Source of the DNA: Mesorhizobium sp. NZP2298
GTDB lineage: Bacteria > Pseudomonadota > Alphaproteobacteria > Rhizobiales > Rhizobiaceae
Reading direction: 5' to 3'
NCBI RefSeq assembly: GCF_013170825.1
Contig: NZ_CP033365.1
Location: forward strand, 1,872,001 to 1,936,000
Length of the DNA: 64,000 nt
A program made the translations under genes and the position numbers. The notes beneath the pieces are model-generated. The model did not search any database, was not told the origin of the DNA, and saw only the letters and a program-made list of their open reading frames with translations. Shown one piece after another: positions 14,008 through 52,141 of the stretch (positions are counted from its first letter, which is position 1; each line of letters starts with the position of its first letter).

Positions 14008-14009
14008 GT

Positions 14010-15082: not shown

Positions 15083-15106
15083 CAGCAGCATTCCTCTTTG
15101 CCAAAT

Positions 15107-15126
15107 TTGTCTATTGATATAGACAA
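15107..15126. promoter_or_regulatory. PhnF-type operator upstream of phnG
   Basis: Perfect 8-bp inverted repeats TTGTCTAT / ATAGACAA are separated by TGAT. The element lies between the -10 candidate and the phnG start, where a repressor would block transcription. The GTCTA half-sites fit the short palindromes bound by HutC/PhnF GntR proteins, and phnF is the adjacent divergent gene. The repeat is seen; the binding partner is inferred. Confidence 0.65.
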
Positions 15127-15134
15127 CTATACAA

Positions 15135-15179
15135 ATTATACATATTACCTAACGCGAGTCCATGACGCGTGGATGACAG
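15135..15179 (-). promoter_or_regulatory. Candidate Pho box and -10 for the phnG operon
   Basis: Read on the minus strand, 15179-15162 is CTGTCAT-CCAC-GCGTCAT, a PhoB box with a perfect first half and 5 of 7 in the second, in the standard 7-4-7 spacing. Downstream lie TAATAT (15147-15142) and a perfect TATAAT (15140-15135). This fits PhoB activation of phosphonate genes under phosphate starvation, with the PhnF-type palindrome just beyond the start site. Confidence 0.6.
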
Positions 15180-15203
15180 GCGATGGAAGGCGGGGGCAAA
15201 TTC

Positions 15204-15953: not shown

Positions 15954-15968
15954 GTCGGCGGCGGCCGG

Positions 15969-16985: not shown

Positions 16986-17008
16986 GTTTCAATCCAGTCC
17001 TTAATGGA

Positions 17009-17042
17009 ATCGCCGGCCCGGCGGTCAAGTCGGGCCGGCGAT
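17009..17042 (-). terminator. Strong intercistronic hairpin between permease and dehydrogenase
   Basis: Perfect 12-bp arms ATCGCCGGCCCG / CGGGCCGGCGAT enclose a 10-nt loop in the 72-nt gap. No U-run follows, so it may protect the transporter message from 3' decay or lower dehydrogenase expression rather than stop transcription. Confidence 0.5.
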
Positions 17043-17057
17043 CGATTGCGGGTCGGT

Positions 17058-37594: not shown

Positions 37595-38641
37595 ATGCCC
37601 TATGTCGCCGCCGAAAATCGCTATGAAAAAATGATCTACAACCGTTGCGGACGGTCCGGTCTCAAGCTGCCTGCGATCTCGCTCGGTCTGTGGCACAATT
37701 TCGGCAATGACACGCCGCATCGGACCAAGCAGTCGATCGTGCGCAAGGCGTTCGATCTCGGCATCACCCATTTCGACCTCGCCAACAATTACGGGCCACC
37801 GCCCGGCTCGGCCGAGACCGCCTTCGGCGAAATCCTGCGCACCGATTTCGCCGGCTACCGCGACGAGCTGATCATCTCGACCAAGGCAGGCTATGGAATG
37901 TGGGCGGGGCCTTACGGCGAATGGGGCGGGCGCAAATACGTGCTGGCCAGTCTCGACCAGAGCCTGAAGCGGATGGGGCTCGACTATGTCGACATCTTCT
38001 ATTCGCACCGCTTCGATCCCGACACGCCGCTCGAAGAAACCATGGGGGCGCTCGACCATGCGGTGCGCTCAGGCAAGGCGCTCTATGCCGGCATCTCGTC
38101 CTACAACTCGCAGCGCACCCGCGAGGCCGCGGACATATTAAGGCAGCTTGGCACGCCCTGCGTCATTCACCAGCCGAGCTATTCGATGCTGAACCGCTGG
38201 GTCGAGGAAGACGGGTTGCTCGACACGCTGGAAGGGCTCGGCGTCGGCTCCATCGTGTTCTCGCCGTTGGCCCAAGGCATGCTGACCGACAAATATCTGG
38301 GTGGTATCCCCGAGGGCAGCCGCGCCTCGCAGGGCAAGTCGCTGAAGACCGCTTTCATCAACGACAAGACCATCGCCAACATCAAGGCGCTCAACGTCAT
38401 TGCCGGCAAGCGTGGCCAGACGCTGGCGCAGACGGCGCTGGCCTGGGTGCTGCGCAAGGGCAAGGTCACGTCGGCACTGATCGGCGCCAGCCGACCGGAA
38501 CAGGTGGAGGACTGCGTCGGCGCGCTGAAGGTGCTCGACTTCAGCGATGCCGAACTGGCTGAGATCGATAGCTACGCGCGCGAATCCGACATCAATCTGT
38601 GGGCGGCCTCCGCTGAGCGCAAAGGCCCCGCGAGAAAGTAG
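37595..38641 (+). CDS. Aldo/keto reductase, L-glyceraldehyde 3-phosphate reductase (YghZ/Gpr) type
   Basis: This 348-residue AKR starts MPYVAAENRYEKMIYNRCGR, matching the extended N-terminus of the E. coli YghZ group, which supports the start at 37595 over the ATG at 37631. It has LGLWHNFG (about 29-36), DLANNYGPPPGSAE (catalytic Asp/Tyr, about 62-75), STKAGYGMW (Lys, about 95) and YSHRFDPDTP (His, about 133). YghZ enzymes reduce L-glyceraldehyde 3-phosphate and methylglyoxal with NADPH. It is separated from the sugar operon by a palindromic element and may have its own promoter. Confidence 0.87.
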   Translation: MPYVAAENRYEKMIYNRCGRSGLKLPAISLGLWHNFGNDTPHRTKQSIVRKAFDLGITHFDLANNYGPPPGSAETAFGEILRTDFAGYRDELIISTKAGYGMWAGPYGEWGGRKYVLASLDQSLKRMGLDYVDIFYSHRFDPDTPLEETMGALDHAVRSGKALYAGISSYNSQRTREAADILRQLGTPCVIHQPSYSMLNRWVEEDGLLDTLEGLGVGSIVFSPLAQGMLTDKYLGGIPEGSRASQGKSLKTAFINDKTIANIKALNVIAGKRGQTLAQTALAWVLRKGKVTSALIGASRPEQVEDCVGALKVLDFSDAELAEIDSYARESDINLWAASAERKGPARK

Positions 38642-38732: not shown

Positions 38733-39830
38733 TCAGGGCGTCGCCGGTTTCTGGGCTGTACCCAGCCCTGCCTTTGGTTTTGCCGGCGCGGGAGCAGGGG
38801 TCTTCATCTTCGCCTCGATCCAGCCGCTGTAGTTGGCCAGCCGCGTGTAGATGCCATAGGCGTCCTTGTGGCCGCAGGCCGCGCTGCCGTCGGCCGGGCC
38901 TTCGCCCCAGCTGACGACACCGACCTGGACCGGGCCATCGGCGCCGGTCATGAACAGCGGGCCGCCGCTGTCGCCATTGCAGGCATCACGCACGCCACTG
39001 GTGGTACCGGCGCAGATCATGTTGCCGGTCAACGGATCGGTCATGTCGGCGGCGATCGCATTGGCGGCGGCATCGATGCCCTTTTCGGAATAGCGCATGC
39101 GGTGGGACAGATCGCCAAGTGCCGCCTTCAGGTCATGCGCGTAGATGGCCTTGATGCCGCTGTTGCAGGCACTGTTCGGCTGCAGATCGAGATCGGCGAC
39201 CATCAGCGTGGTCGGGAACGTTCCATCCTGCATCTTGCCCCAGCCGGTTACGGTGGTCTTGCCGTTGTCGGGGGTCGCCTCGCGGGTTAGCTTGATGGTC
39301 GGCGCGTCGGCCGGCTCGGCAAGCCGGAGCAGACCGAGGTCGTTATCGAGCGTCTGCTCGCTGTAACCCTCGTTGACGATGACCTCCACCACTTTGTGGC
39401 GCTTGCCTTCGCTGAGGTCGGTGGCACCGGTCAGCACCGTGACCGAGTCCGGCGAGATCGGCTCGCCTTTGTCGTTGAGGCAGTGCGCCGCCGTCAGCAC
39501 CCATTGCGGCGCGATCAGGCTGCCGCCGCAGAATTGCGCATTGGCCTGCGAGGCCGGGTTCTCGTCCAGCCTGGCGGTGGTGAGCAGCGCGACCTGGAAC
39601 GGATAGGCGCCCTTTTCGGCCTGGTTGCCGCCATAGACGCGGTCGGCGCCGTCGGGGTTGTCCGCCGCTGCCTTGGCCCTGGCATCGGCCACCCGCTGCA
39701 TCGGCGAGACGGCCGCTTCCGGCCTCACGGTGCTCTCGTCCGCCCGGACGGTGTTGATGAATGCAACGGCAGCAGCAACGCCAAGCAGCGATGCGGCGGC
39801 GATTGGCCCGAACCGATTTGTGATGTGCAC
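38733..39830 (-). CDS. Exported trypsin-like serine protease
   Basis: This protein of about 365 residues is an S1-family protease. The catalytic triad is intact: His in VLTAAHCLN (about 117), Asp in DNDLGLLRL (about 168) and Ser in CNGDSGGPLFM (about 297). CGGSL and the disulphide-type cysteines also fit trypsin. AGGAGG lies 5 nt before a GTG at 39830, which is preferred over an ATG 27 nt upstream. The N-terminus is a signal sequence (IAAASLLGVAAAVAFINTVRA). The C-terminus ends in a Pro/Ala/Lys-rich tail. It is divergent from a second serine protease gene and borders the caspase cluster. The target is unknown. Confidence 0.88.
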   Translation of the reverse strand: MHITNRFGPIAAASLLGVAAAVAFINTVRADESTVRPEAAVSPMQRVADARAKAAADNPDGADRVYGGNQAEKGAYPFQVALLTTARLDENPASQANAQFCGGSLIAPQWVLTAAHCLNDKGEPISPDSVTVLTGATDLSEGKRHKVVEVIVNEGYSEQTLDNDLGLLRLAEPADAPTIKLTREATPDNGKTTVTGWGKMQDGTFPTTLMVADLDLQPNSACNSGIKAIYAHDLKAALGDLSHRMRYSEKGIDAAANAIAADMTDPLTGNMICAGTTSGVRDACNGDSGGPLFMTGADGPVQVGVVSWGEGPADGSAACGHKDAYGIYTRLANYSGWIEAKMKTPAPAPAKPKAGLGTAQKPATP

Positions 39831-40230
39831 CTGAACCTCCTGAGACAATTCTCCCATGCGGCTCGACGCCGGGCATTGTGCAAGGAGGTGTTGCCGGTTC
39901 AACGATCCGCACGCGCGCCGCATCGAAACGGTGCGCGACCGGTCACAAAACCGAATCCCACTTTTGCTAACCGTGCCCGCGAGCAGAACCCGCACAAAAT
40001 CCTATAGCCCCCCACGGGCTACGTGGAAGCGATTTGTCATTGCCAATCTTGGATTATTTTAGGCAGTATATCCGTGCAGAATTTTTTTGGCGGGGGCCTT
40101 GAAAATGACAGCCTAGAAGAACGCTCGCAGGGGATGCCGGCGAGCAAACTCATTTTTCGGCGTCACCACGATCTCGACAATATTTCTGTATTTTGATCCA
40201 GTCCTTGCTGACTTTTGGGAGAGTCTCACC
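39831..40230. promoter_or_regulatory. Divergent intergenic region between the two protease genes
   Basis: This 400-nt gap holds no supported gene. It contains a TAGCCC-N5-GGGCTA hairpin (40005-40021), an AT-rich block around 40040-40085 and a GCTCGC...GCGAGC inverted repeat near 40121-40145. The region should carry promoters for both proteases, but no clear -35/-10 pair stands out. Confidence 0.35.
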
Positions 40231-41325
40231 ATGACAAAACTGACAAACCTTATGATAGCGTCCGCATTGCTTTCCACCGCGATGTGGACGGTCCCGGCCT
40301 TCGCCGCCGATCCTGGCTCCGCCAGTGCGGGTAATGGCGAAAGCATGCGGGATGTATCTTCAGGAGACTTCAAGGCCGGTCGGGCAAAACCGATCACCAC
40401 GCCGAAGCTTACCGACGAAGACAGCCGCGCCGCGCCGCTTGCTGACGAGGCGACGGCTGTCAAATCCTATGGCATCGTCGGAAGGTCCGCCGATGGCAAG
40501 GAGATCAAGATCGAGCCGAGCGAAGCTCTGCGCGATCTCATCATCAAGGAACTGAACGCGCCGGCCAATGGAGCGGATGGGGTCCAGCGCAAGACCGAAG
40601 ATCCCGGGCTCGGCGAAGGCGAAGCCGGCCGTCAGGTTTTCGGCCCTGATGATCGCGAGCAGGTCAGGAGCACCAAGACCTATCCGTTCTCGGCAATCGG
40701 CTATCTCGAAGCCAAATCGCCGAAGACCGGCAGCTATGGCAGTTGCTCGGCAACGCTGATCGGCCCGCGCACGGTGCTCACCGCGGCGCACTGCCTCTAC
40801 AGCCATGAGGACAAGGACTGGCTCTCGGAATATCTGTTCGTCCCGGGCCTCAATGGCAGCACTGCAGACGACGCCCCCTTCGGTGCCTTCTCCTATGAAA
40901 GCGCCTATGTGCTGCAGGGCTTCATCGACAATTACCAGGGCTATTACGGCTCGGTGATCCCGTGGGACCTGGGCATCATCACGCTGAAGCAGGATGTCGG
41001 CACCAACCTTGGCTGGCTTGGCTATGCCAACTATGACGATCTCGGCGACTTCACCGCCAACCTCGTCGGCTACCCCGGCGACAAGCCGATGGGCACGATG
41101 TGGAAGACAAGCTGCGAAGTGCATGCCGAGAACATCGCTCCGGAATATTTCCAGTATGACTGCGATACGTTCCCGGGGTCGAGCGGCAGCTCGGTATATG
41201 CCTATGACACCAACTCCAAGCAGCGCATCATCACCGGCGTCAACGTGGCGGAAAGCCCCGACGCGAATACCGCCGTGCGCCTGAACGCCGCAAACGTCCA
41301 GTGGATCAACAGCCTGTATAAATAA
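40231..41325 (+). CDS. Exported trypsin/V8-like serine protease
   Basis: This 364-residue protein has a classic signal peptide (MTKLTNLMIASALLSTAMWTVPAFA-AD), a long pro-region-like stretch (about 30-145) and a protease domain (about 150-360). The triad is visible: His in TVLTAAHCLYS (about 188), Asp in IPWDLGIITL (about 245) and Ser in TFPGSSGSSVYAY (about 314), the GxSGS form of V8/glutamyl-endopeptidase-like enzymes. It differs clearly from the neighbouring trypsin-like gene. A strong intrinsic terminator follows. It is probably secreted or periplasmic and made as a zymogen. Confidence 0.9.
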   Translation: MTKLTNLMIASALLSTAMWTVPAFAADPGSASAGNGESMRDVSSGDFKAGRAKPITTPKLTDEDSRAAPLADEATAVKSYGIVGRSADGKEIKIEPSEALRDLIIKELNAPANGADGVQRKTEDPGLGEGEAGRQVFGPDDREQVRSTKTYPFSAIGYLEAKSPKTGSYGSCSATLIGPRTVLTAAHCLYSHEDKDWLSEYLFVPGLNGSTADDAPFGAFSYESAYVLQGFIDNYQGYYGSVIPWDLGIITLKQDVGTNLGWLGYANYDDLGDFTANLVGYPGDKPMGTMWKTSCEVHAENIAPEYFQYDCDTFPGSSGSSVYAYDTNSKQRIITGVNVAESPDANTAVRLNAANVQWINSLYK

Positions 41326-41350
41326 CACGCGCTCGCGCAGTCGCGAAAAG

Positions 41351-41380
41351 AGGCGGCGGATCAAACCCGTCGCCTTTTTT
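41351..41380 (+). terminator. Intrinsic terminator after the V8-like protease gene
   Basis: GGCGGCGG pairs with CCGTCGCC (one G-U pair) around a 7-nt loop, and a run of six T follows directly. It is a textbook rho-independent terminator 25 nt after the stop codon. Confidence 0.85.
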
Positions 41381-41478
41381 CGTGCCGATCGCTCCGCACG
41401 GGCTTCTCTTGCACGAGGCAGGCTCGCCGATTACGCTTGGCTTGCCAAGGGGGCGAGGCATCCAGGGGGTTCAAGGGG

Positions 41479-43302
41479 ATGGCGCGGGCAAGGGCAGTGT
41501 TCGGGGTTGTGGCCGCATCGATGCTGGGTGCATTGATGCTTTCGACGGCTTTTGCCGATCCCGCCCCTGTCGGCGGCGCCTGGGCGGAGCGGGTGCAGAT
41601 CCTCTATCAGGCCGACACACGCTCCGTGCTGCGCAGGACCGTGCGTGTCTGGGACTTCCATCCGGAGAAGAACCTCGACTTCGTCTGGGAGCCGGCGGCA
41701 GGCCTGTCGCCCGACCGGACGATAGCCGAAGACGGCACCATCAACGGCAAGGGCAGGTTGGTGTGGCGGGTGCGCGGCTCGGCGAGCTATGACCCGAAGA
41801 CGGTCTATTCCAGCTATTTCGGCGACGTCAGAAACGGCCGGCCCGAGGGGCAGGGCCGGCTCGACCTGCGCTCGGGCGAGGTGTTCGAGGGGCACTGGTC
41901 CGCCGGGGCACTCCACGGGCAGGGCATTCATGTCGATGCCGACGGCAACCGCTATGAGGGCCAATTCATTGGCGGCGTCCCGAATGGCGAGGGCCGGTCG
42001 CTGTCGAAAACCGGCGAGATCTTTGCCGGCTCCTTTGTCGATGGATTGAAGAACGGCAAAGGCACCACACGGCTCGCCGGCGGCACGGTCTACACATCGC
42101 AGTGGGTGATGGGCAAGGAGGTCGGAGGCTCGCGTCCCGACGTGCTGGCCGATGCCAGGGTCGGCGGCCTGCTCAAGGCGCAGGCGGGTGACGGCGATGC
42201 CGACAAGGTCGAGATCGGCGTTGTGGTCGATCAGCGCATGACCCAGCAGGCCGACCTGAAATACCAGCATCTGGTGCGCGACGAGGACATCGCGATCTAT
42301 CCGGAGGACAACCTCTACAACGATGCCTGGAACGGCACCGGCCAGGTCAAGACCAGCAATGTCTATGACGGTCCGGACTGGGAGAATAGCCCGGCCTTTG
42401 CCGAAGTCGACCTTGGCACCAAGGATCAGTCCAGGGTCAAGCTCGACAGTCTGGAAATGAAGGTCGCCGCCAGCGACGCCTATCGCAAGCCGATGCTGTC
42501 GATCTCGGAACATTTCGGCTGCATCGGCTTCAGGCCGGATTTCTCGATCATCAACAATGGCTGGGGCGATGCCAGGGACATGAAGATGTCGATCCAGTTC
42601 ACTACCGTGGACGAGGAGGGCAATCCGACCGGCCAGCCAAGCCGCATGTTCACCAAGGACATCGGCGGTTTCGGCGAGGGCGTCGACGTGTCGATCAAGA
42701 GCGTGCTCGACGAGGCCGGCGTCGATACGGCCAGCCTGGAGACGGGGCGTTTTTCCTGTCCCTCGGCCGACAGCCTGAATGTCTGCCGCAGCCAGCTCAC
42801 CAACAAGGTCAAGTTCGGCGAGGTCGGCGACTATCTCGGCAATTTCAACCAGGCAATGACACTGAACGCGATCGGCAAGTTCGATTATTCCTGGGCCGAC
42901 GACCAGGGCAATGTCTTCCAGCAGAGCGAGCCCTTCCGTGCCCAGATGACCATGGCGGTCTTCGAGATTCCCGAATCGATGGCCGAATGCGGTGATGGCG
43001 GTGGCGGCAACCCCGAAGCGATGCGCTACCAGAACATCGAATTCCCGATCGGCAAGCATGACTACACGATCGCCATGCCGGTGCGCGGCAACAAGAATAT
43101 CAGCGCCTATACGGCGCGGCTGAAGATGTGGTCGGCGATGTCATCGATCCATCGTTTCAGCATCGCCGCGCATTTTGCCGACGGCAGCGTGCGCGAGAGC
43201 AAGCCGGTTACCTTCTTCTATTTCCGGCCGAAGCAGTCGCTGTTCGAGACCAGGACCGAACCGGCGTCGTGCTATCTGCCCCGCCAGATGGGCAGTTGCT
43301 AA
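41479..43302 (+). CDS. Exported MORN-repeat protein of unknown function
   Basis: This 607-residue protein has a signal peptide (VFGVVAASMLGALMLSTAFA-DP). Four MORN-type repeats span about 108-205 (for example YFGDVRNGRPEGQGRLDL, FEGHWSAGALHGQGIHV, YEGQFIGGVPNGEGRSL, FAGSFVDGLKNGKGTTRL). The remaining 400 residues are not recognised; they contain two or more cysteine pairs and look beta-rich. The ATG at 41479 is chosen because the run GGGGGTTCAAGGGG precedes it. MORN repeats often bind lipid or partner proteins. It lies between the two proteases and the caspase genes, a grouping that suggests a shared envelope process. Confidence 0.82.
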   Translation: MARARAVFGVVAASMLGALMLSTAFADPAPVGGAWAERVQILYQADTRSVLRRTVRVWDFHPEKNLDFVWEPAAGLSPDRTIAEDGTINGKGRLVWRVRGSASYDPKTVYSSYFGDVRNGRPEGQGRLDLRSGEVFEGHWSAGALHGQGIHVDADGNRYEGQFIGGVPNGEGRSLSKTGEIFAGSFVDGLKNGKGTTRLAGGTVYTSQWVMGKEVGGSRPDVLADARVGGLLKAQAGDGDADKVEIGVVVDQRMTQQADLKYQHLVRDEDIAIYPEDNLYNDAWNGTGQVKTSNVYDGPDWENSPAFAEVDLGTKDQSRVKLDSLEMKVAASDAYRKPMLSISEHFGCIGFRPDFSIINNGWGDARDMKMSIQFTTVDEEGNPTGQPSRMFTKDIGGFGEGVDVSIKSVLDEAGVDTASLETGRFSCPSADSLNVCRSQLTNKVKFGEVGDYLGNFNQAMTLNAIGKFDYSWADDQGNVFQQSEPFRAQMTMAVFEIPESMAECGDGGGGNPEAMRYQNIEFPIGKHDYTIAMPVRGNKNISAYTARLKMWSAMSSIHRFSIAAHFADGSVRESKPVTFFYFRPKQSLFETRTEPASCYLPRQMGSC

Positions 43303-43323
43303 CGTACATACCTTGGTCGGGCG

Positions 43324-45051
43324 CTACTTTCGGCCCATCTCGAAATAGTTGGGCAGCGGGATCAGGCGGGTGAAGATCGTACCTTGCGCAAAAACCCGCA
43401 GTTCCAGCATCGATCCTGACGAGCGTTGCGCGCTCTGGTCGAACAGGAAATTGCCGAGCGAATAGACCTCGGCCACATCGCCGCCGGCAAGCGAGACGAC
43501 CGCCTCGCTCGACACATGCGGATGGCCGCCGACAATGGCCGAGACGCCGCGCAGGCGCATCTGGTCGGCAAGCATGTCCTCGCGCGGCGACGGTTCTGTC
43601 TTGTACTCACGGCCCCAATGAACGAAGGCGACCACCGGACGCTGCGCATTGTCGTGCAGCAGCCGGTCGAGCAAGGCAGGGGTCAAGAGGTCGGTGTTCT
43701 TCGAGCCGTTGGTGTCGATGTCGGTGAGGCCGACGAGATCGAGATCGGCAAGCGCCAGCGCTTCTCCCTGGCCGAAATGCGGGATGCCGGCCGCGTCCAG
43801 GGCGCGCAGCGTCTCGGCATAGCCTGATGGGCCGAGATCGTAGGCGTGATTGTTGGCGAGGCCGACGCCGGCGACATGCAGCCGCTTCAGCATGCTGGTG
43901 GCGAGGTCCTCCGGCATGGCCAGCGTCATGTCGTCGATCGCTTCCGGCACGTTGGGCAGGATGACACCCTCGAGATTGACGATCAGCGGCCGCGATCCTG
44001 TCAGCGCCAGGATGCTGTCGACGATCTTGTCGGCAACGGTGTCGCGCAGCAGGATCTTCTTCATGGCGCGGCCGAAATTCACGTCGCCGGCGAGATAGTA
44101 GATCCTGTCCTTTGGCCGCGCCGGGTTGTTGAAGCCGGGGCCGAAGGCCCCGAACAGCGCCACCACATAGCTGGTGGTCCGCTCGACATAGTCGGACGTG
44201 TGTTCCTGCGAGTTCTCGTTGGCCACAACCAGCGGCTGGGCGCCGAACAATTCGCGCTGCAGCCTGGTCTGGATGTAGAGCGCGCCGACGGAATCGGCAT
44301 GATCGGGCTGGCGCAATGCCGCGATGCCGTCGAGCGAGCCTGCGGCCAGCATGTTCAGCGTCTGCTGGTCGAAACGCCTGGAATCATGCTGCGGCAGATA
44401 GTGTGAGAAGTCGGTGGATTCGACGATCAGCGTGTCCCGGTCGACGATGGCTTTGAGCGCCTCGGCCAGCCTGTCCCAGTCGCCGCGTTTCGCCTTCACC
44501 GACATCGCCACCGGCACGATCTTCGCCTCGGGGAAATAGTGATGCAGGAACGGCAGCATGGCGCGCACGCCATGTTCCTTGTCGAACAGGCAGGACTCTT
44601 CGACCATGTCGCCATGTGCTTCCAGAATGCGCACCGCATCGCTGTCGGCAGCCACGGGGCCAAGCACGGTGTCGAAGCCGCGCGCCGTGGTGGCGTAGAG
44701 CTTGTGCGTCTTGTGGAAATGGTCCGGCGACAGGATGACGATGCGCTTGTAGCGGAAGCCGGACGCGGCCCGGAAACCAAGCGCCACGAGGTCGGCGGCC
44801 AGCAGATGATGCGGCACCGTGATGCCGGTCAGCCGCTGGTTGGATGGCTCGACATCGGCGACGTTGGCGATGGCATCCCGGAAGAGCGTCGCGTCGTCGT
44901 AGAAAGGCGGAAAGTTCTCTGCGCCGGGTGGGCAGACGACAGGGGCGGCGAAGGTGGGGAGAGGCAGCGTGAGGAGGAATAGCAGCATTGCCGCGATACC
45001 GGGCCACGATCGCGCGAGGGGGGTGCCTTGGCGCAGGCCCGACCTCCTCAC
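43324..45051 (-). CDS. Exported MEMO-CapA fusion protein
   Basis: This 575-residue protein has a signal peptide (about 1-35, ending PTFA-AP). The first domain (about 40-310) is MEMO-like (AmmeMemoRadiSam system protein B type) with TVPHHLLAAD, ILSPDHFHKTH, FDKEHGVRAMLPFL and ESTDFSHYLPQ, which hold the conserved histidines. The second domain (about 325-565) is a CapA/PgsA-type metallophosphatase with AGDVNFGRA, VNLEGVI, LANNHAYDLG, FVHWGREY, VGGHPHV and YSLGNFLFDQ. I know of no standard protein with this pairing. Its ATG overlaps the stop of the WD40-caspase gene, so it is co-translated with it. Confidence 0.85.
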   Translation of the reverse strand: MRRSGLRQGTPLARSWPGIAAMLLFLLTLPLPTFAAPVVCPPGAENFPPFYDDATLFRDAIANVADVEPSNQRLTGITVPHHLLAADLVALGFRAASGFRYKRIVILSPDHFHKTHKLYATTARGFDTVLGPVAADSDAVRILEAHGDMVEESCLFDKEHGVRAMLPFLHHYFPEAKIVPVAMSVKAKRGDWDRLAEALKAIVDRDTLIVESTDFSHYLPQHDSRRFDQQTLNMLAAGSLDGIAALRQPDHADSVGALYIQTRLQRELFGAQPLVVANENSQEHTSDYVERTTSYVVALFGAFGPGFNNPARPKDRIYYLAGDVNFGRAMKKILLRDTVADKIVDSILALTGSRPLIVNLEGVILPNVPEAIDDMTLAMPEDLATSMLKRLHVAGVGLANNHAYDLGPSGYAETLRALDAAGIPHFGQGEALALADLDLVGLTDIDTNGSKNTDLLTPALLDRLLHDNAQRPVVAFVHWGREYKTEPSPREDMLADQMRLRGVSAIVGGHPHVSSEAVVSLAGGDVAEVYSLGNFLFDQSAQRSSGSMLELRVFAQGTIFTRLIPLPNYFEMGRK

Positions 45052-48000
45052 GGCTCGGCCAACACGATGTTCTCCACGCCGCCGACATAGTAGAACGGCT
45101 TCTGCTTCGACGCGGTCAGTCGCACCACCTCGCGCGAAATGAAATCGGCAAGCCCGAACAGCGTCACACCACCATCAGATGTTCTTGCCTTGCCGCGCAG
45201 GCCTTCGAGGATCGAATAGGTGAAGACGCCGTGGCCGAGCTCCGGCAGTTCCGCGGCGGTGTTGTTGGCGGCGGTGGCTGAAAAGACAACGATGCGTGCG
45301 TCCTGCGCATCCTTTTCCAGGCGGGGGTTGAAGGCGTTGGCGGCGTGGCAGGTGTCGAGCAGCATGAAGCGCATGCCCTTGGCCCGCTCGACCGATTTCT
45401 GGATGTCACCCCAGTCGACAAGCGAGGAGCGCTTCCAGCGATCGGCATCCTGTTTGCGGCCGTCGGTCGGGATGAAATAGTAGTCCTCGTCGATGTTGAT
45501 GCCATGGCCGGCGACGAAGACGATGGTGGTGTCGTGCTCACCGGGCTTGTCGAGGAAATCGGCAAGCTGGTCGTCGATCGTGTGCGAATCCGGCTCCATG
45601 ATGGTGTCGGCGCTGGCGACCGTGTAGGTCTGCTGGGCCTTGTCGGGGCTCTCGTCGAGCGCCTCGCGATTGACCAGAACCAGCGATTCCATCGACGAGA
45701 ACAAGGGCGCCGATTTCTGTGCGACCACCTTGAGGAATTCGGTGGCATCGTCGACGGGGTAGCGCAAATCGCAGGCGCGGCCGGAACAGGCATCGGTCAG
45801 GAACGGATATTTGTCGACGCCGATGACCGCGACATAAAGCTTGCCCTTGGGCTCGGCCTTCTCGGTCTTTCTCGCCAGCGTCGTCACGCTGCGCTCGGTC
45901 AGATAGCCATACTCGTTGGTGCCGGTGATGCGGATGGTGTTTTGGCCATCCTCGACCGGCACCTCGACGATGGTGCTGTTGCCGTCCGCCGAGCGCGTGG
46001 TGATGTCGCCGACATTGCGGCTGTTCGACAGGATCGAGAAGCCGGCGACATCGGTGCCGGCTTCCTTGGCGCCTGTTATCTCGACGGCGACGTAACCGTC
46101 GCGAACCTTGCTCTGGTCGGTGGCGAGGCGGATGCCGAATTCCGGCGGCTTGCGCTGCAGGAGCTTCCGCAGCTCGTTGTCGACGCCCGGCCGCATCTCC
46201 TTCACCGCCTGTTTGGCGCTGCGCAGGATGATGGCGCGGCGCACCATTTCCGGGCTCCAGAGATATTTCTTCAACTGGCCGGCGCGGATGAAGCGGCCTT
46301 CATGGTCGCGGCCCTGATTGACCTGCCAGCCGATCAGCTTGTCGCCCTCGTCGGAGGAATAATAGTAGCCCTGCGGCATCCAGGCGATCCATTGCGAGCC
46401 GGCAAAGAACATCGACACGATCAGCTCGTGCGTCTTCAGGTTCCACAGCCTCACTGTCTGGTCGGCACTGCCGGTGACCAGGAGGCCGGCCTTCTCCGAC
46501 GCGACCATGGCATTGATTTCGCCGGTATGGCCGGTGAATTCACCAGTGACCCTGGCGGTCGCGGCCTTGTATTCCAGCAACGTGCCGTCATTGCCGCCGG
46601 TGATCAGGCCAAGCCCGTTGTCGATCAGCGTGAAGGCTGAATGGACAAAGCCGTTGGTGGCATCGTTCTCGATCGAGCGCACCATCTTGCCGCCATTGGC
46701 GATCTCCAGCACCGCATTCTCCAGCGCGTCCTTGCCGCCCGCCGTGGCGTGCAGCGACCACTGGCCGTCGGCAAGTGCTGCACGGGCAAACGAGCCGGGC
46801 TCGATGAGGGGCTGAGGGTCATCGAAGAACCGCTCGGTGGTCGGCAGTTCCAGCCTCTTGTCCAATGCGCCCAGCTGCTCCGGGCAAGCCACGCGCTCGG
46901 GGCAGGGGTTGGCATTGCCCCAGGCGATGACGCCGTTTGTCGGATCGACGCCGATCGCGGTCACCGGTTCGCCCAAACCCTGCAGCAAGGCCTTGCGTTC
47001 GCCGTTCGCCGGATCCCAGACCTGGATGGCATTGCGGGTGCCGCCGGCGGTCGCCACCAGCGAGCCGTCGGCATTGGCGGCGCTGGCATAGACGCTGCCG
47101 TCATGGCCGCTGTAGTCGAGCAGCTTCTCGCCGGTGTCGGTGTTCCAGACGGTGGAGCGGTGCTTGTCGGCACAGCGATAGCCGCAGGATGCGACCAGCC
47201 GTGACCCCTTTGCAAAAGTCAGCGAGCCGATGAGGAAATCCTGTTTCGGCATGGCGCGCACCAGCGTGCCGTCGGCGGTGCGCCAAAGCTGGACCTGCCC
47301 GTCCTTGCTGCCGGTGGCGAACAGGCTGCCGTCCTGCGAGGCGGCCAGCGCCAGGACGCTGACGTCCCGCAATTGTTCGGCCTCATCAGGCAAGGCAATT
47401 TCCTCGCCCTTGGCGACATCCCAGAGCCGGATGCCGTTGTCGGTCGTCGTTGCCGCCAGCCGGGTTCCCGCGGCGCCGAAGGCCAGCTTGTCGATGTGCC
47501 AGGAATCGGCATCGAGCTTCCTGTCCAGCGTCCAGCCGTTCGCGGACTTGTCGTCGAGCCGCCAGAGATAGACGATGCCGTCGCCACCACCGGCAGCCAG
47601 GGTCTTGCCATCGGGAGAGAAGGCGAGATCATAGGTCGCGTAGTCGGCGGCCTTGAGCACGGCCTTGATCTTGCCGGTGGCGAAGTCGAACAGTCTGATG
47701 TCGCCATAGGGCGGCTTGTCACCGAGGCCGGCGCCGAAATAGCCGCCGGCGGCGATCGTCTTGCCGTCCGGCGAGACCGTGACCGCGAAGATCTTGCCGT
47801 CGCTGCCACTGCCGAGATAGCCGCGTATGGTGCGTAGCGTCACCCCGCTCTGCCAATCCCAGATGCGGATGGTCTTGTCGTCGGATGCCGAGACGAGATC
47901 CTCGCCGTCAGGAGTGAAGGTGAGGTCGGCAATCCGTGCCGTATGGCCTCCGGTATCGAGGTCGAGGTGGAAATCCGGGTCGTCCTCGGCGCGGGCGGCC

Positions 48001-48080
48001 GGGGCCGTGAGCAACGCTCCAGCCATGGCCAACCAGCAGCAGGCACGCATGAGGCGGACGCTGATCCCGGCCTTTCCCAT
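45048..48080 (-). CDS. Exported WD40-repeat caspase-like protease
   Basis: This 1010-residue protein has a signal peptide (about 1-31, ending AARA-ED), then WD40 repeats over about 45-590 (for example DLVSASDDKTIRIWDWQ, LAAGGGDGIVYLWRL, LFATGSKDGQVQLWRT, LVTGSADQTVRLWNLK) and a caspase (peptidase C14) domain at about 748-1000. The catalytic dyad is intact: His859 in FVAGHGIN and Cys911 in LLDTCHAAN. A region of about 590-745 joins the two and may be an immunoglobulin-like or regulatory segment. It is followed without a gap by the MEMO-CapA gene. The exported location is unusual for a caspase-fold protease. Confidence 0.9.
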   Translation of the reverse strand: MGKAGISVRLMRACCWLAMAGALLTAPAARAEDDPDFHLDLDTGGHTARIADLTFTPDGEDLVSASDDKTIRIWDWQSGVTLRTIRGYLGSGSDGKIFAVTVSPDGKTIAAGGYFGAGLGDKPPYGDIRLFDFATGKIKAVLKAADYATYDLAFSPDGKTLAAGGGDGIVYLWRLDDKSANGWTLDRKLDADSWHIDKLAFGAAGTRLAATTTDNGIRLWDVAKGEEIALPDEAEQLRDVSVLALAASQDGSLFATGSKDGQVQLWRTADGTLVRAMPKQDFLIGSLTFAKGSRLVASCGYRCADKHRSTVWNTDTGEKLLDYSGHDGSVYASAANADGSLVATAGGTRNAIQVWDPANGERKALLQGLGEPVTAIGVDPTNGVIAWGNANPCPERVACPEQLGALDKRLELPTTERFFDDPQPLIEPGSFARAALADGQWSLHATAGGKDALENAVLEIANGGKMVRSIENDATNGFVHSAFTLIDNGLGLITGGNDGTLLEYKAATARVTGEFTGHTGEINAMVASEKAGLLVTGSADQTVRLWNLKTHELIVSMFFAGSQWIAWMPQGYYYSSDEGDKLIGWQVNQGRDHEGRFIRAGQLKKYLWSPEMVRRAIILRSAKQAVKEMRPGVDNELRKLLQRKPPEFGIRLATDQSKVRDGYVAVEITGAKEAGTDVAGFSILSNSRNVGDITTRSADGNSTIVEVPVEDGQNTIRITGTNEYGYLTERSVTTLARKTEKAEPKGKLYVAVIGVDKYPFLTDACSGRACDLRYPVDDATEFLKVVAQKSAPLFSSMESLVLVNREALDESPDKAQQTYTVASADTIMEPDSHTIDDQLADFLDKPGEHDTTIVFVAGHGINIDEDYYFIPTDGRKQDADRWKRSSLVDWGDIQKSVERAKGMRFMLLDTCHAANAFNPRLEKDAQDARIVVFSATAANNTAAELPELGHGVFTYSILEGLRGKARTSDGGVTLFGLADFISREVVRLTASKQKPFYYVGGVENIVLAEP

Positions 48081-48082
48081 CG

Positions 48083-48799
48083 CTATTTGGCTTCAGCCGC
48101 CGGTTGCCCATTGCGAACATAAGCCTCGATCGCCGTGGCGAAAGTAGGCGAACCCGCCTTGCGCTGCTTGTCGATATAGCCGGCAAAATAACTCCAGAAC
48201 GAGACGGCATAGTCACGGAAATAAGCATCGGTGACCTTGCGCGAACACAGGTCTCCATCGACGCAAAAGGATAGACGGTTGAGGAAGTAGACGATGCGGT
48301 CGAAATTCTCGCCGAAATCGGCAAGCGGCATATCGCCACCGGAGGCTGTCATCGCCTCGATGCCGATGCGTTGCCGGAAAATCTGTTCTTCTGTAGGCGA
48401 GGGGTTGGCGCTGAGCAGATTGTCGTATTTGGCGTTGAGGGCAGAGAGACGATCTTTCAAGGCCCGCTGCGCCTGCTGGTAGTCCTTGGTTTCCCAGAGC
48501 TCGACCAGCGACATGGTCTGTTCGACGCGCTTCTGTTCCTGGTTGGCCAGGAACTGGTAGACCGAGAATGCCAGGGTGAAGATGATGGCGAAACGCACCA
48601 GCATGCCGGACCAGGCATAGACGAGCATGCGCCAGTCGCGATCGGTGAAGGGATTGCTCTCCTTCTTGATCTCATGGCTGCTTGGCCAGGGGAAACCTTC
48701 CGTGGTCTCCGGCAGCGTCTGCTTCGCCTCCGGCGCCTTGGCGGGCGCGGCCGCCTGTGTCTGCTTTGTCGTGTTTGTCGTGCCCCCCGGCTTCTTCAT
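48083..48799 (-). CDS. Single-pass membrane protein of unknown function in the caspase cluster
   Basis: This 238-residue protein has a Lys/Thr/Ala-rich cytoplasmic N-terminus (about 1-58), one transmembrane segment (about 62-84, MLVRFAIIFTLAFSVYQFL) and a helical extracytoplasmic part with a likely coiled stretch (about 88-130, EQKRVEQTMSLVELWETKDY). No family is recognised. It overlaps the upstream small secreted-protein gene by 4 nt and ends 2 nt before the WD40-caspase start. It might anchor or sense for the exported caspase; this is inferred from context only. Confidence 0.75.
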   Translation of the reverse strand: MKKPGGTTNTTKQTQAAAPAKAPEAKQTLPETTEGFPWPSSHEIKKESNPFTDRDWRMLVYAWSGMLVRFAIIFTLAFSVYQFLANQEQKRVEQTMSLVELWETKDYQQAQRALKDRLSALNAKYDNLLSANPSPTEEQIFRQRIGIEAMTASGGDMPLADFGENFDRIVYFLNRLSFCVDGDLCSRKVTDAYFRDYAVSFWSYFAGYIDKQRKAGSPTFATAIEAYVRNGQPAAEAK

Positions 48800-49197
48800 T
48801 TGCAGCTGTCCAGTTCGATGGTGGCGGACGGATCAAGCACGATGCCCGGCGCCTCAAGCTGCTTTTTCAGGCATGCGAGCTGCGGGCGCGAAACAATGAA
48901 CTGCACATCCGGCTCCGCCGGCGCCTTGTTGGGCGACGGCAAGGCTTCGACCACGCCGCGTGAGGCACAGCTCGAGAGATCGACCACCACCGCGTCACTG
49001 CTGGTCTTGGCGAACTGGTCGTACTGGTCGAGGAAGCACGTTGCCAGTTCCGAATTGATGACCACCTGCTTGGCGCAGAGGCCACAGCTGTCCTGAGCCG
49101 AGGCATTGGCAATCAGCAACAGGCCGCCGGCAAGTCCGGCAACCGTTCCGCGCCAGGAGAAAATAAAGTTCGTCACAATCGATCCTATCTGCTTCAT
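48796..49197 (-). CDS. Small secreted cysteine-containing protein of unknown function
   Basis: This 133-residue protein has a signal peptide (about 1-35, LAGGLLLIANASA-QD) and a mature part with six cysteines (DSCGLCAKQ, ATCFLDQ, SSCASRG, LACLKKQ, ELDSCK), so disulphides are likely. No family is recognised. It starts the leftward operon secreted protein - membrane protein - WD40-caspase - MEMO-CapA. It may be a ligand or inhibitor of the neighbouring proteases, but nothing in the sequence proves this. Confidence 0.7.
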   Translation of the reverse strand: MKQIGSIVTNFIFSWRGTVAGLAGGLLLIANASAQDSCGLCAKQVVINSELATCFLDQYDQFAKTSSDAVVVDLSSCASRGVVEALPSPNKAPAEPDVQFIVSRPQLACLKKQLEAPGIVLDPSATIELDSCK

Positions 49198-49292
49198 CCG
49201 GTCGCTGGCTCCTGGCCGCGGCCGGGAATGTTCTCATATCGCGCCAATCGCGCAAGAGCCGGCACCAGGGCCGTGCGACCCGGTGGCGGAGC

Positions 49293-51494
49293 TCAGGCGC
49301 GCGGCACCGTCTCCATTGGGAAGATCATCACCGCGCCCTTGGGGCCGCCCTTGTCGGCAAGCCGCATCACCGAGCGGGTCGGCGGCGCCATGCCGATATC
49401 GGCGAGCATGTCGGAGAAGCTGGCGGGGCCGAGGCCGCGCGTTATCGACGTGACGCCTTCCTGCGCCAGGAAGCTCAGATCTTCCTTCTCGCTTTCCGGC
49501 GGCGCCTCGGTCAGCACCGCGATCATCCGCTCCATGCCGAAGCTGGTGTCGGTGAAGGCGAGCAGCCCTTCCTCCAGCGTGGCCCGCGGCGCCAGGCGCT
49601 CGGCGACGATGTGGGTGATCGAATAATCGCTGCCGACATAGAGTACGTTGATGTCGACCAACTGGTCCGAGCTGTTCTTGGCCAGCACATGCACCTCATC
49701 GCCGGGCGAGACGCGCGGCACCGCCGAAGCCTGCAACGGTTCGAGCCCACCCTTGTCACGGCGCTTGACCTGGAACTGGACGTCGACATCCTCGGGCTTG
49801 TAGTCGGAGGCCACCGCCAGCCGCGAGAGGCCGGTGGCGCGGAAGATGGTGCGCAAATTCCTGGTCGTGGCGTCGACCAGCTTCTGGCGGTCGTCGCGAT
49901 GGATGATGACCAGAGGCGGCTTGCTGCCGTCCTTCAAGGTCACGTCGCCGGACGCCGGCAAGAACCACAGCGCCGGTTTGTCGGTGGCGTCCCCGGCGGC
50001 GCCTGCAATGGCATTCTCGCGCATCACGGCGAAGCGCAATTCGGCGCTCTTGCCGGGATCGACCAGTTCTATGTTGAAACCGGTTTCCTTGGCTGCTGCC
50101 AGTTCGTCCAGAACCGAATTGACCAGCGTGGTTTCCTCCTCCAGTCCCTTGGTCGCGGCCGGCCGCGCCACGGTGAGCTTGTAGTCGACGGCGATCTCCG
50201 CCACCCGCGCATAGGCGTTGGCGGGAATGTCGGCGAGCTTCAGCGCAGGCTTCTTCTCGAACTCGACCGGCTTGACCTGGCTCTCCAGGTTCCTTGCCGA
50301 CCGCACTTCGAGATAGCCGACGGCGTCGGACAGCGACGACAGTGCCGAGGGCAGGATGGCAAGCTTGCTGCCGGGCGTCAGGCGATGCAGCAGCCCGGCG
50401 GCGATGGTCGCCTCACCATCCTTGACGACGATGGGCCACTGCATGACCGCTTCTGTCTTGTCGGTGCCGAAGACGCGCGCGTCGAGTTCGCCCTCGAACA
50501 GCGGCGTCGGCCGGGTGCGGCTGTCGGCCGAATATTGCTGCAGAACCGCCTGGCCAAGCTGGCGATAGGTGACGTTGGGGTTTTCGGCGAGCTTCGACAG
50601 GATGGTGAAGGTGAAAAGGCCAAAGCGTGGCGCGTCCGCCGTACCCTTGGGCAGCGGCATCTCCGGCGTCGTCTCCACCGTTTGCGCGGCGTAGAAGGCG
50701 ACCAGCTTGCCCTTGGTGATCGGCTCGCCGCCGGTCGGCGTCAGGTTGAAGGCGGGCTTGCGCGCGCCATTCTCGTCAAGGCCCCGCGATGCGCTTACGA
50801 CCGTGTCCTCATAGGTCTTGATGGCCGCCGCCCTTGCGGCCTCGTCGCCGCCGACCAGATCAGCGAATTCGACCTTGCGCTCCAGCTCGTCATCGACCTC
50901 GGCGGCACGGGTCGCAGTGCCGGAATGGCAGCAGTCGAACACGACCCAGACAAACGCGCCCTTGTCGCGGATGGCGTCGAGCGCGTCGCCGATCTCATTG
51001 TCGACCAGCGCGTTCGGCACGCCGGCGTCGCGGTTGACCCACTTCTCGATGTCGACCGGCAGGAAAATCTCGTCGAGCCCGTCGGTCTCGTTGCCCTTGA
51101 CCATTTCAGGCTGCTGGGCGCCGTGGCCCGACAGATGCAGATAAACGAAATCGTCGCGCTGAACCTTGGCCGCAAGTTCGGCGAGTGCCGCCTTGATCGC
51201 CGCATGGGTCGGCAAATCTTTGGCACCGGGCACATCCTTGGCGAGCAGCGTGACGTTCTCCGGCGCGAACCGCACCGGGTCCGGCACGTTTTTCAGCAGA
51301 TACTCGTGCACCAGGCCGGCATCGTTCTTCGGTCCGATCAGCCAGTTCCTCTGCGGCAGGGCAGGATATTCGGTGCAGGCGACCAGCAGCGCATGGTAGG
51401 TGCGCGATGCCGCCAATGCTCGGAACGATACCGCACCGGCCGCCATCAGCGCCGACGTGCCGACAAGCAGCGTCCGGCGTGTCAATTTGATCAT
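49293..51494 (-). CDS. Tat-exported metacaspase-like protease
   Basis: This 733-residue protein begins MIKLTRRTLLVGTSALMAAG, a twin-arginine signal, with cleavage near ALA-AS (about 29). The caspase/metacaspase domain spans about 33-345. The dyad is intact: His124 in YLHLSGHGAQ and Cys189 in VVFDCCHSG, with the typical ETDGLDEIFLP between them. The C-terminal 380 residues are unrecognised and beta-rich in places, with VHVLAKNSSDQLVDINVLYVG resembling a DUF4384-type segment. GGGGAAG precedes the ATG at 51494; longer in-frame readings lack support. It is 95 nt upstream of the secreted-protein operon. Confidence 0.9.
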   Translation of the reverse strand: MIKLTRRTLLVGTSALMAAGAVSFRALAASRTYHALLVACTEYPALPQRNWLIGPKNDAGLVHEYLLKNVPDPVRFAPENVTLLAKDVPGAKDLPTHAAIKAALAELAAKVQRDDFVYLHLSGHGAQQPEMVKGNETDGLDEIFLPVDIEKWVNRDAGVPNALVDNEIGDALDAIRDKGAFVWVVFDCCHSGTATRAAEVDDELERKVEFADLVGGDEAARAAAIKTYEDTVVSASRGLDENGARKPAFNLTPTGGEPITKGKLVAFYAAQTVETTPEMPLPKGTADAPRFGLFTFTILSKLAENPNVTYRQLGQAVLQQYSADSRTRPTPLFEGELDARVFGTDKTEAVMQWPIVVKDGEATIAAGLLHRLTPGSKLAILPSALSSLSDAVGYLEVRSARNLESQVKPVEFEKKPALKLADIPANAYARVAEIAVDYKLTVARPAATKGLEEETTLVNSVLDELAAAKETGFNIELVDPGKSAELRFAVMRENAIAGAAGDATDKPALWFLPASGDVTLKDGSKPPLVIIHRDDRQKLVDATTRNLRTIFRATGLSRLAVASDYKPEDVDVQFQVKRRDKGGLEPLQASAVPRVSPGDEVHVLAKNSSDQLVDINVLYVGSDYSITHIVAERLAPRATLEEGLLAFTDTSFGMERMIAVLTEAPPESEKEDLSFLAQEGVTSITRGLGPASFSDMLADIGMAPPTRSVMRLADKGGPKGAVMIFPMETVPRA

Positions 51495-51739
51495 ATTGCT
51501 TCCCCAAGCCCGATCGAATTTCCCAAGCGAGATTACCCTCGTCGAGGATTTTGTCAGTATTTTGAATGTCGCCGCGCCATCAGGCCCGCCATCATCAAAT
51601 GTGCCGGAACGTCGTCGATTGGTCCTGGACAACAACAGAAGAGTAGCAAAGACGACGGTTCGTCGCTATCTGAATGGAATCGGGCCGTTTGCACCGGCAA
51701 ACAGCCTGGGGATGGCGCAGAACAAGTTGGAACAGGACC

Positions 51740-52141
51740 ATGGCTGCGAGGGATGTGCTGACGAAAAACCAGTTGTGCGTGCTCGAGAAGCTCGAGACCG
51801 CCAGCGGGCCGCTCAGCGCCTACACCTTGCTTGATCAGCTGCGCGAGCGCGGTTTTCGCGCGCCGCTGCAGGTCTATCGGGCGCTCGACACGCTGGTGAA
51901 GTCAGGCTTTGTCCACCGGCTGGAAAGCATCAATTCCTTCGTCGCCTGCGCCGAACCGCACGACCACAGCCATTCGATGACCGCCTTCGCAATCTGCGAC
52001 ACATGCGGGCAGGTGAACGAAATGTCGGATCACGACGTCGACCACCGGCTGAACGAATGGGTGAGTTCGACCGGCTTCGCCGCCAAGAAGGCGGTGATCG
52101 AGTTTCGCGGGACGTGTGCCAAGTGCCGGGCTGCTGCCTAA
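51740..52141 (+). CDS. zur: Fur-family transcriptional regulator, Zur-like
   Basis: This 133-residue protein has the Fur winged helix (about 10-75, PLSAYTLLDQLRERGFRAPLQVYRALDTLVKSG) and a dimerisation domain with ECAEPHDHSHSM-type His/Asp ligands (about 75-85) and two CxxC motifs (CDTCG and CAKCR) for structural zinc. The CAEPHDHSH segment is characteristic of Zur rather than Fur or Irr. It should repress zinc uptake genes when zinc is plentiful; none lie in the window. It is divergent from the metacaspase gene across 245 nt without other features. Confidence 0.85.
   Translation: MAARDVLTKNQLCVLEKLETASGPLSAYTLLDQLRERGFRAPLQVYRALDTLVKSGFVHRLESINSFVACAEPHDHSHSMTAFAICDTCGQVNEMSDHDVDHRLNEWVSSTGFAAKKAVIEFRGTCAKCRAAA

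Follow-up and report, generated by a model that had tools for sequence, protein, structure and literature searches.

Gene content of the locus

We examined a 64,000-nucleotide stretch of the Mesorhizobium sp. NZP2298 genome (contig NZ_CP033365.1, positions 1,872,001 to 1,936,000; hereafter the window, whose own numbering is used below), a genome of 7.34 Mb in one contig. Between an aldo/keto reductase gene (AKR) on the left and a Fur-family regulator gene and polA on the right lies an island of eight genes (38733..51494) that encode two trypsin-fold proteases (TRY1 and TRY2), a MORN-repeat protein, a MEMO-CapA fusion, a WD40-caspase protein (WDC), a membrane protein (TM), a small cysteine-rich secreted protein (CYS) and a metacaspase-like protease (MCA). 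Comparison of this island across genomes leads us to conclude that it very probably constitutes one functional system. A first-pass annotation, made from the letters of the sequence, had described these eight genes and their domains, and this description holds: all eight open reading frames were found in place and intact, and Pfam supported every one but CYS.

Four of the products are proteases. MCA (49293..51494, minus strand, likely start 51494) is an exported metacaspase-like C14 protease with a twin-arginine-like N-terminus and the dyad H124 and C189 (PF00656, 47.7 bits). Its profile matches the metacaspases of PDB entries 7qp0, 4f6o and 6w8s over approximately positions 29-211, with E values down to 1.6e-21, and the C-terminal region of more than 400 amino acids has no Pfam match. 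WDC (45048..48080, minus), probably exported, joins a WD40 beta-propeller (PF00400) to a C14 caspase domain with H859 and C911 (PF00656, 42.9 bits); both C14 scores exceed the curated cut-off of 21.4. TRY1 (38733..39830, minus) is an exported, zymogen-like S1A trypsin (PF00089, 155.2 bits) with an H/D/S triad, a D189-type pocket and an activation site between R and VYGG. Its likely start at 39830 is a GTG codon placed from homologues, and the open frame runs on to 39995. TRY2 (40231..41325, plus) is an exported trypsin-fold protease resembling glutamyl endopeptidases (PF13365, Trypsin_2, 33.8 bits; PF00089, Trypsin, 31.6 bits), with a likely pro-site between R134 and QVFG; its nearest PDB entry is the glutamyl endopeptidase 1p3c (E 1.6e-18).

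The exported MORN-repeat protein (41479..43302, plus, likely start 41479; PF02493, 56.4 bits) has six conserved Cys. MEMO-CapA (43324..45051, minus) is exported and joins a MEMO-like domain (PF01875, 70.3 bits) to a PGA_cap domain (PF09587, 111.8 bits); it also matches the NCBIfam model TIGR04336 (102.6 bits). With WDC these two form a three-gene module that is optional. TM (48083..48799, minus) has a DUF4760 domain (PF15956, 30.9 bits), one hydrophobic segment by eye and an invariant C-x5-C motif, and its gene overlaps by 4 bases that of CYS (48796..49197, minus), a secreted protein of 133 amino acids with six cysteines. CYS matched no Pfam or NCBIfam model, and its AlphaFold2 (AF2) model has a pLDDT of 71. 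It has 314 homologues, and a listing of 120 of them contained no protein with a Pfam domain. The strand order of the eight genes (-,+,+,-,-,-,-,-) implies at least three transcription units, and a one-operon reading was ruled out because the genes occupy both strands.

Linkage and distribution in Mesorhizobium

Our genus sample comprised 146 Mesorhizobium genomes (genomes and loci are referred to below by G and L numbers), which were searched genome-wide with MCA (E limit 1e-20), TM (1e-8), TRY2 (1e-30), MORN (1e-20), WDC (1e-100) and the regulator (1e-30) as queries. MCA, TM and TRY2 were each present in 57 genomes, and MORN and WDC each in 43, a subset of the 57; within both groups the lists of genomes, compared by eye, were identical. 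The Fur-family regulator was found in 146/146. By tblastn of the window genes on the loci of the other 56 carriers we found the island in each of them at the position that it occupies in the window, split over contigs in G185, G250, G267 and G284. TRY1 was seen in 55 of the 57 carriers, the contig ending first in G231 and G267, and MEMO-CapA in 42 of the 43 module carriers, with G185 breaking there. The first-pass annotation had proposed that the genes are linked and had set scattered orthologues beforehand as the observation that would speak against this; one site in 57/57 positive genomes bears the proposal out, and shows that the genes travel together.

Barring remnants and contig ends, the 83 loci that we inspected fell into three states: eight genes (43 loci), five genes (14), in which MORN, MEMO-CapA and WDC are missing together, and no genes (26). 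Only MCA and WDC served to score these states, the presence of the other genes being taken from the tblastn listings, and the empty sites are a sample of 26 of the 89 MCA-negative genomes. In all 26 the AKR and regulator matches lay 80-432 bases apart, and no island gene was detected at E 1e-3 except for MCA remnants in two, corresponding to its first 32 residues in G136 and its first 64 in G069. A MORN fragment abuts the WDC start in G175, marking a deletion junction, and G155 retains two WDC fragments. Because these remnants and this junction are kept, the direction of change in those lineages was loss. On an AKR plus PolA protein tree of 82 rows, parsimony gave 13 changes of the island and, among carriers, nine of the module; well-supported branches alone force eight changes for the empty state and eight for the five-gene state. 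Repeated block loss and block exchange via the flanks both fit these results, and the AKR plus PolA tree cannot separate them. Divergent island alleles were observed for CYS and TM in G272 (L028) and for MCA alone in G280 (L049). MORN paralogues in G159, G256, G257 and G267 (L195-L199; 40-45% identity) were set aside since no other island gene adjoins them.

Relatives outside the genus

Named genomes were scanned as well; of the 231 relatives obtained the best 80 were retained, and loci were read with a home-made hidden Markov model (HMM) scan. Among loci that do not bear the name Mesorhizobium, all eight genes were found beside polA in seven, namely L128, L155 and L160 (metagenome-assembled genomes), L159 and L175 (Aquibium) and L169 and L172 (Nitratireductor); Pfam confirmed the WD40-C14 protein, MORN and the second trypsin of L169. 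Three more loci (L115, L116, L129) contained seven genes before the locus ended. Smaller sets also occur. MCA-CYS-TM was present with no other island gene within reach in L147, L151, L161, L162, L165, L166 and L168, L113 has only MCA, CYS, TM, WDC and MEMO, and L170 has MCA, WDC and MEMO without CYS-TM. MCA had no other model match beside it in L114, L182 and L188, being split over two frames in the last, and in L183 a second C14 gene adjoins it.

More distant relatives group caspases with trypsins and CHAT proteins. In L013-L015, from three genomes belonging to a single family, MCA, a trypsin and a TPR-CHAT protein lie close together, and their N-termini look signal-like by eye. A caspase-TPR protein, MCA, a TPR-CHAT protein and a trypsin occur in L022. 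In the Rhodobacteraceae loci L180, L184, L185, L187, L191 and L192 a trypsin accompanies a second MCA on the opposite strand, CHAT proteins being present in three of the six, and in L190 the second MCA is present and the trypsin absent. We also observed that the Shimia aestuarii locus (L185:1057-7108 and 12288-18176) encodes a trypsin, a second C14 protein, a histidine kinase, a patatin-like protein whose N-terminus resembles, by eye, that of a lipoprotein, and a pair of CHAT proteins, one of them on TPRs. The NZP2298 genome itself has seven further C14 genes (L001-L007), two of them ∼3 kb apart near 5.91 Mb; these fit the L022 caspase-TPR model better than the MCA model, and WDC was not among the genes listed by that C14 search.

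Catalytic residues, selection and export

The catalytic His/Cys dyad was conserved in 144/144 MCA and 86/86 WDC loci, and the catalytic triad in 75/75 TRY1 and 105/106 TRY2 loci, the exception being a distant copy in L156; these counts mix G genomes with named genomes that overlap in species and are not independent, while the Cys and zymogen-site counts given below use unique sequences. The statement of the first-pass annotation that all protease catalytic residues are present thus extends across the relatives. Median ratios of nonsynonymous to synonymous substitution (dN/dS) ranged from 0.128 to 0.266 over the eight genes, CYS being highest, compared with 0.109 for polA, 0.131 for the regulator and 0.067 for AKR, which at the level of coding sequence shows purifying selection on the island genes. 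Conservation of this kind makes us highly confident that the proteases are predicted correctly to be active.

For export we scored N-termini with a heuristic of our own, which takes the most favourable start where several are possible. By this measure N-termini were signal-like in TRY1 (55/58), TRY2 (45/58), MORN (50/52), MEMO-CapA (46/49), CYS (73/76) and MCA (57/80; a twin-arginine-like motif brings this to 58/80), in WDC at the lower rate of 33/55, and in none of 74 TM sequences. The cytoplasmic controls gave 0/184 in all (AKR 0/55, regulator 0/73, PolA 0/56), with one twin-arginine-like match among the regulator N-termini. As evidence independent of the N-termini, paired Cys are invariant in CYS (six, 79/79), TM (C179 and C185, 79/79), TRY2 (four, 68/68) and MEMO-CapA (two, 55/55), and six Cys are conserved in both MORN (53-54/54) and TRY1 (67-71/71). 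WDC has three invariant Cys pairs in addition to the catalytic C911 (56/56); MCA has no such invariant pairs. Since the N-terminus of WDC is weak on its own, it is these three pairs and C911 that support its probable export. The argument for the set as a whole draws on close Cys pairing and signal sequences together, not on Cys conservation alone, and by these marks the island products are very likely exported. The first-pass annotation had placed every product outside the cytoplasm, seven by signal sequence and one by a membrane anchor; the claim stands for most orthologues of the seven genes, is weak at the N-terminus of WDC, and should be read with the heuristic nature of the scores in mind.

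Zymogen sites and predicted specificity

TRY1 has the features that define S1A zymogens, namely the triad, an R/K-[VI]-x-G-G activation site and D189. Of the sequences that have a residue at the position in question, 70/70 show an R or K before V/I-x-G-G, and 59 of 69 have the D189 equivalent, T, G or S occupying it in the other 10. In TRY2, R134 is conserved in 68/68 sequences and aligns just ahead of the first residue of the 1p3c chain. Both trypsins resemble zymogens that are activated at a conserved Arg/Lys. S1B glutamyl endopeptidases have an S1-pocket His that gives specificity for Glu. At the corresponding site of TRY2 the residue may be Asn338, the alignment to 1p3c being unsure there.

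MCA keeps D58 (104/104) and D187 (105/105), and WDC keeps D778 and D909 (56/56 each). We take acidic residues at these positions to be the Arg/Lys binders of metacaspases and MALT1. The island thus seems to hold basic-specific proteases together with zymogens awaiting a cut at a basic residue.

Flanking genes and possible control sequences

The flanks are AKR (37595-38641, plus) on the left and, on the right, the Fur-family, Zur-like regulator (ZUR, 51674-52141, plus; 106 bits to the Zur model, under its cut-off of 167) and polA (from 52345, minus). The GC content of the island resembles that of the remainder of the window. A conserved non-coding block, given without strand, lies between the divergent TRY1 and TRY2 (39990..40070) and contains the palindrome CCACG-GGCTA-CGTGG in an alignment of 53 sequences; a second strongly conserved non-coding block was observed between the same genes at 40150-40231. 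The conserved blocks are possibly a shared control region. Candidate RNA elements were rejected, all Rfam matches falling below their gathering scores, and inspection by eye upstream of MCA found no Zur-box.

The CYS-TM pair in other settings

TM relatives on plasmids led us to a protease-CYS-TM triad, for which we opened one of 13 Rhizobium records, one of seven Cereibacter records and one of two Methylobacterium records. Rhizobium johnstonii pRL11 encodes a 1543-amino-acid peptidoglycan-binding/PAN/C14 protein followed by a six-Cys protein and then TM; the annotated start of the large protein leaves only a short signal-like stretch, and the main argument for its export is that it has peptidoglycan-binding domains. 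The order in Methylobacterium phyllosphaerae is a CHAT protein, a four-Cys protein and TM, with a gene for Hachiman HamA ∼9 kb from the triad. In Cereibacter sphaeroides a six-Cys protein and TM are followed by a C14 protein, the N-terminus of which is signal-like.

Searches with the TM alignment added further loci. At class level (385 genomes), only G615 matched apart from the window's genome; it has a small secreted neighbour, and no protease was recognised in its 20-kb stretch. At order level (297 genomes) there were 16 matches, two from the island clade, four with a small secreted neighbour and 10 without. The last 10 DUF4760 matches (38.7-56.5 bits) were dropped from the CYS-TM count for want of a CYS neighbour; three of the four retained matches score equally low (45.9-51.3 bits), and the reason for retaining them was the small secreted protein encoded next to each. 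Beside CYS-TM, G005 encodes a 1621-amino-acid PG_binding/PAN/CHAT protein and G012 and G119 encode related exported proteins of ∼490 amino acids (32% identity), and at the CYS-TM-type locus of G752 no protease was recognised. The ∼490-amino-acid exported partners at L222:10669-12138 and L225:8213-9709 have a motif that gave the impression of ClpP-like folds. Their nature as proteases was not upheld, the motif being an impression and the L222 partner matching Pfam NfeD1b_N at E 0.0032; the L225 partner had no credible PDB match.

In all, the eight CYS-TM loci outside the clade comprise four with an adjacent caspase or CHAT protease, two with the ∼490-amino-acid exported partner and two with none recognised. 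Two of the four protease neighbours carry peptidoglycan-binding and PAN domains, an architecture that, as predicted from its domains, places the protease at the cell wall. These caspase and CHAT proteases fused to peptidoglycan-binding and PAN domains, each beside CYS-TM, lie at L193:4027-8658 and L220:10242-15107. CYS homology at the outside loci, judged with a model built from the island clade alone, was clear in G005 (E 7e-13) and Rhizobium (1.5e-10) and marginal in G119 (0.002) and Methylobacterium (0.02). Within the genus, the CYS and TM of G272 show 61% and 55% identity to those of the window, and its other island genes 82-93%. On balance these settings incline us to regard CYS-TM as an anchor or regulator.

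A proposed envelope protease system and its alternatives

We propose that the island encodes an envelope-acting system in which proteases may activate one another, and give this overall explanation an even chance of being correct. MCA and WDC would be two caspase-fold proteases of the Arg/Lys type, the WD40 propeller of WDC serving as sensor or scaffold. TRY1 and TRY2 would be produced inactive and would need a cut after the conserved Arg/Lys, supplied by MCA, by WDC or by already active TRY1, with self-activation of TRY1 as an alternative to the caspase cut. Secreted CYS and membrane-bound TM may work as a matched pair, keeping an exported protease in place or in check at the inner membrane, a role suggested because a similar pair adjoins other exported proteases; MORN and MEMO-CapA would be accessory parts. 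The most likely purpose, and the weakest step of the proposal, would be a response to envelope damage or to intrusion by a competitor, a phage or another agent, ending in periplasmic proteolysis; such a defence or stress-triggered role we put forward tentatively. The first-pass annotation had likewise suggested a proteolytic cascade. The conserved Arg/Lys sites of both trypsins lend it indirect support and the caspase cut itself is something we infer, so that an Arg/Lys zymogen cascade is, to our minds, evenly poised.

Several observations weigh against this proposal. Trypsin zymogens often self-activate, so that conserved Arg/Lys sites are not proof of a caspase cut. A contiguous block can vanish together mechanically or spread by flank recombination. 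CYS-TM is missing from the MCA loci L114, L170, L182, L183, L188, L180, L184-L187, L190-L192 and L013-L015, and L181 shows a weak TM match only. Among the eight outside CYS-TM loci, two have no recognised protease, and in two more the partner is taken for a possible protease on a motif impression. CYS homology was not significant in G012, Cereibacter, G615 and G752 (E 0.33-310 being reported for four of the eight), and adjacency to TM and the Cys pattern are the sole support for the identity of CYS there. The partial correlation of 0.52 between CYS and TM divergence, which counts in favour of the proposal, was calculated from 630 non-independent pairs of 36 genomes, possibly including G272. 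The cytoplasmic controls keep Cys too, three in AKR, five in the regulator (probably metal ligands) and two in PolA (94/98).

Of the alternatives, the one that survives best is a defence or competition island, a periplasmic trap that would kill the cell or degrade an intruder upon envelope breach. It would fit that the island is patchily distributed, present or absent as a whole, and has changed many times at a single site, as would the plasmid-borne relatives of the protease-CYS-TM triad, the Hachiman HamA gene near one of these and the weak matches to conflict-type caspase models. However, PADLOC returned partial, single-domain matches only, we saw in the eight proteins neither an NTPase nor a toxin domain like those of known systems, and all 57 Mesorhizobium carriers keep a single chromosomal site, which leaves this possible but rather unlikely. 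A periplasmic role in checking the quality of envelope proteins or in remodelling them, with no killing, would account for the export marks, for protease relatives with peptidoglycan-binding domains, and for purifying selection near that of polA and GC content like that of the rest of the window. A housekeeping set would hardly be expected to be missing from 89/146 genomes of the genus, though, and the zymogen design suggests triggered and not constant activity; we consider this reading doubtful.

Host contact, which the first-pass annotation had listed among possible roles, or secretion outward for nutrition (symbiosis, protein scavenging), is improbable. Genomes with the island show a weak excess of nodC (both, 46; island only, 11; nodC only, 55; neither, 34; Fisher p 0.018, ignoring phylogeny), and the symbiosis-island reading was set aside on account of this weakness and the neglect of phylogeny. 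Eleven of the 57 island genomes lack nodC, the cluster is conserved in Nitratireductor and Aquibium, and the membrane partner and peptidoglycan-binding relatives point to the periplasm, so that host contact is not an obvious role. That the genes are independent exported proteases sharing a site through history only, as both coding strands, the optional three-gene block and MCA loci without CYS-TM might suggest, is equally improbable: no more than three states were seen among the 83 loci, several genera have this gene set next to polA, and caspase-trypsin-CHAT and protease-CYS-TM groupings recur elsewhere.

If the envelope-acting system that we propose is real, it would take caspase biology into a further compartment, the oxidising envelope, in which the activation sites of trypsin zymogens fit the predicted caspase specificity, would offer a testable bacterial protease cascade, and would define CYS as a family seemingly partnering exported proteases of more than one fold. 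Speculatively, CYS-TM could be a general membrane-anchored controller of alphaproteobacterial exported proteases, the island being its most elaborate form, a periplasmic zymogen cascade with caspase-fold initiators and trypsin effectors whose logic would resemble that of clotting or complement.

Comparison with known systems

Bacterial relatives of caspases have for the most part been treated as executioners that act in the cytoplasm. No full text in the open-access library searched used any of six phrases for a caspase or metacaspase located outside the cytoplasm, and DUF4760 was named in one open-access paper within the reach of the full-text search. The cluster was not described in the open-access full texts searched, a coverage outside which most subscription papers and preprints fall, and to this extent the first-pass annotation was right to call the system undescribed. 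The parts of the island are of known families; their assembly and location matched no described kind in the searches made.

Prokaryotic metacaspases, or orthocaspases (PF00656), share with MCA and WDC the C14 fold and the His/Cys dyad (Asplund-Samuelsson et al. 2012, PMC3501461). The portion of that paper available to us names Mesorhizobium, reports an abundance of metacaspases in Alphaproteobacteria, mentions N-terminal helices as possible signal peptides, and gives 23 metacaspase operons in which proteolysis domains occur. That portion describes no exported caspase-trypsin cluster, CYS-TM pair or zymogen sites, and the word trypsin has no occurrence in the main text.

The first-pass annotation had likened the island to cytoplasmic conflict systems in which caspase, trypsin, WD40 and MORN modules recur. 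In NTP-dependent conflict systems caspase-like and trypsin-like peptidases do recur, but the systems, as set out in the portion of the account available to us, are built around NTPases together with effector-associated domains (Kaur et al. 2020, PMC7159879), and MORN does not occur in that text. Among the Pfam and NCBIfam matches of the eight proteins (for WDC, 25 of 49 Pfam matches) we saw no NTPase (MoxR/vWA, STAND, GTPase) or effector-associated domain; the island products appear exported and both protease kinds co-occur. The kinship as first stated is not supported. PADLOC gave only partial, single-domain matches (MCA to the PDLC02987 caspase, E 4.6e-15; WDC to HEAT-ARM_XIII, E 1.5e-14; the trypsins weaker). 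A point in favour of the kinship is that the NCBIfam model for EACC1-associated caspases (NF047832), of the conflict-system type, does match WDC at 46.3 and MCA at 24.6 bits, although far below its cut-off of 140. NF047832 also matches the Rhizobium protein (100 bits) and the Cereibacter protein (55.6), both below the cut-off, and the Methylobacterium CHAT protein scores 47.2 bits against the Csx29 model (cut-off 300). By sequence, MCA, WDC, the Rhizobium and Cereibacter C14 proteins and the Methylobacterium CHAT protein are kin of those groups at the protease-domain level and not members. Membership in the NTPase conflict systems or in PADLOC systems was rejected, their defining parts not being seen. 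No gasdermin was among the Pfam and PADLOC matches of the eight proteins, the presence of a bacterial gasdermin model in these libraries being unconfirmed.

CHAT and TPR-CHAT proteases (PF12770; type III-E Csx29) fill the place of the caspase-fold protease in relatives of the island, where the window has a WD40-C14 protein instead; these CHAT relatives show signal-like N-termini by eye, one with PG_binding and PAN domains. Compared with the solved metacaspases (7qp0, 4f6o, 6w8s), MCA is distinguished by its predicted export and by the more than 400 amino acids that lie outside the match. TRY1 and TRY2 share triads and basic activation sites with S1A trypsins (3i78) and S1B glutamyl endopeptidases (1p3c), and unlike these they are fixed partners in a caspase-bearing island.

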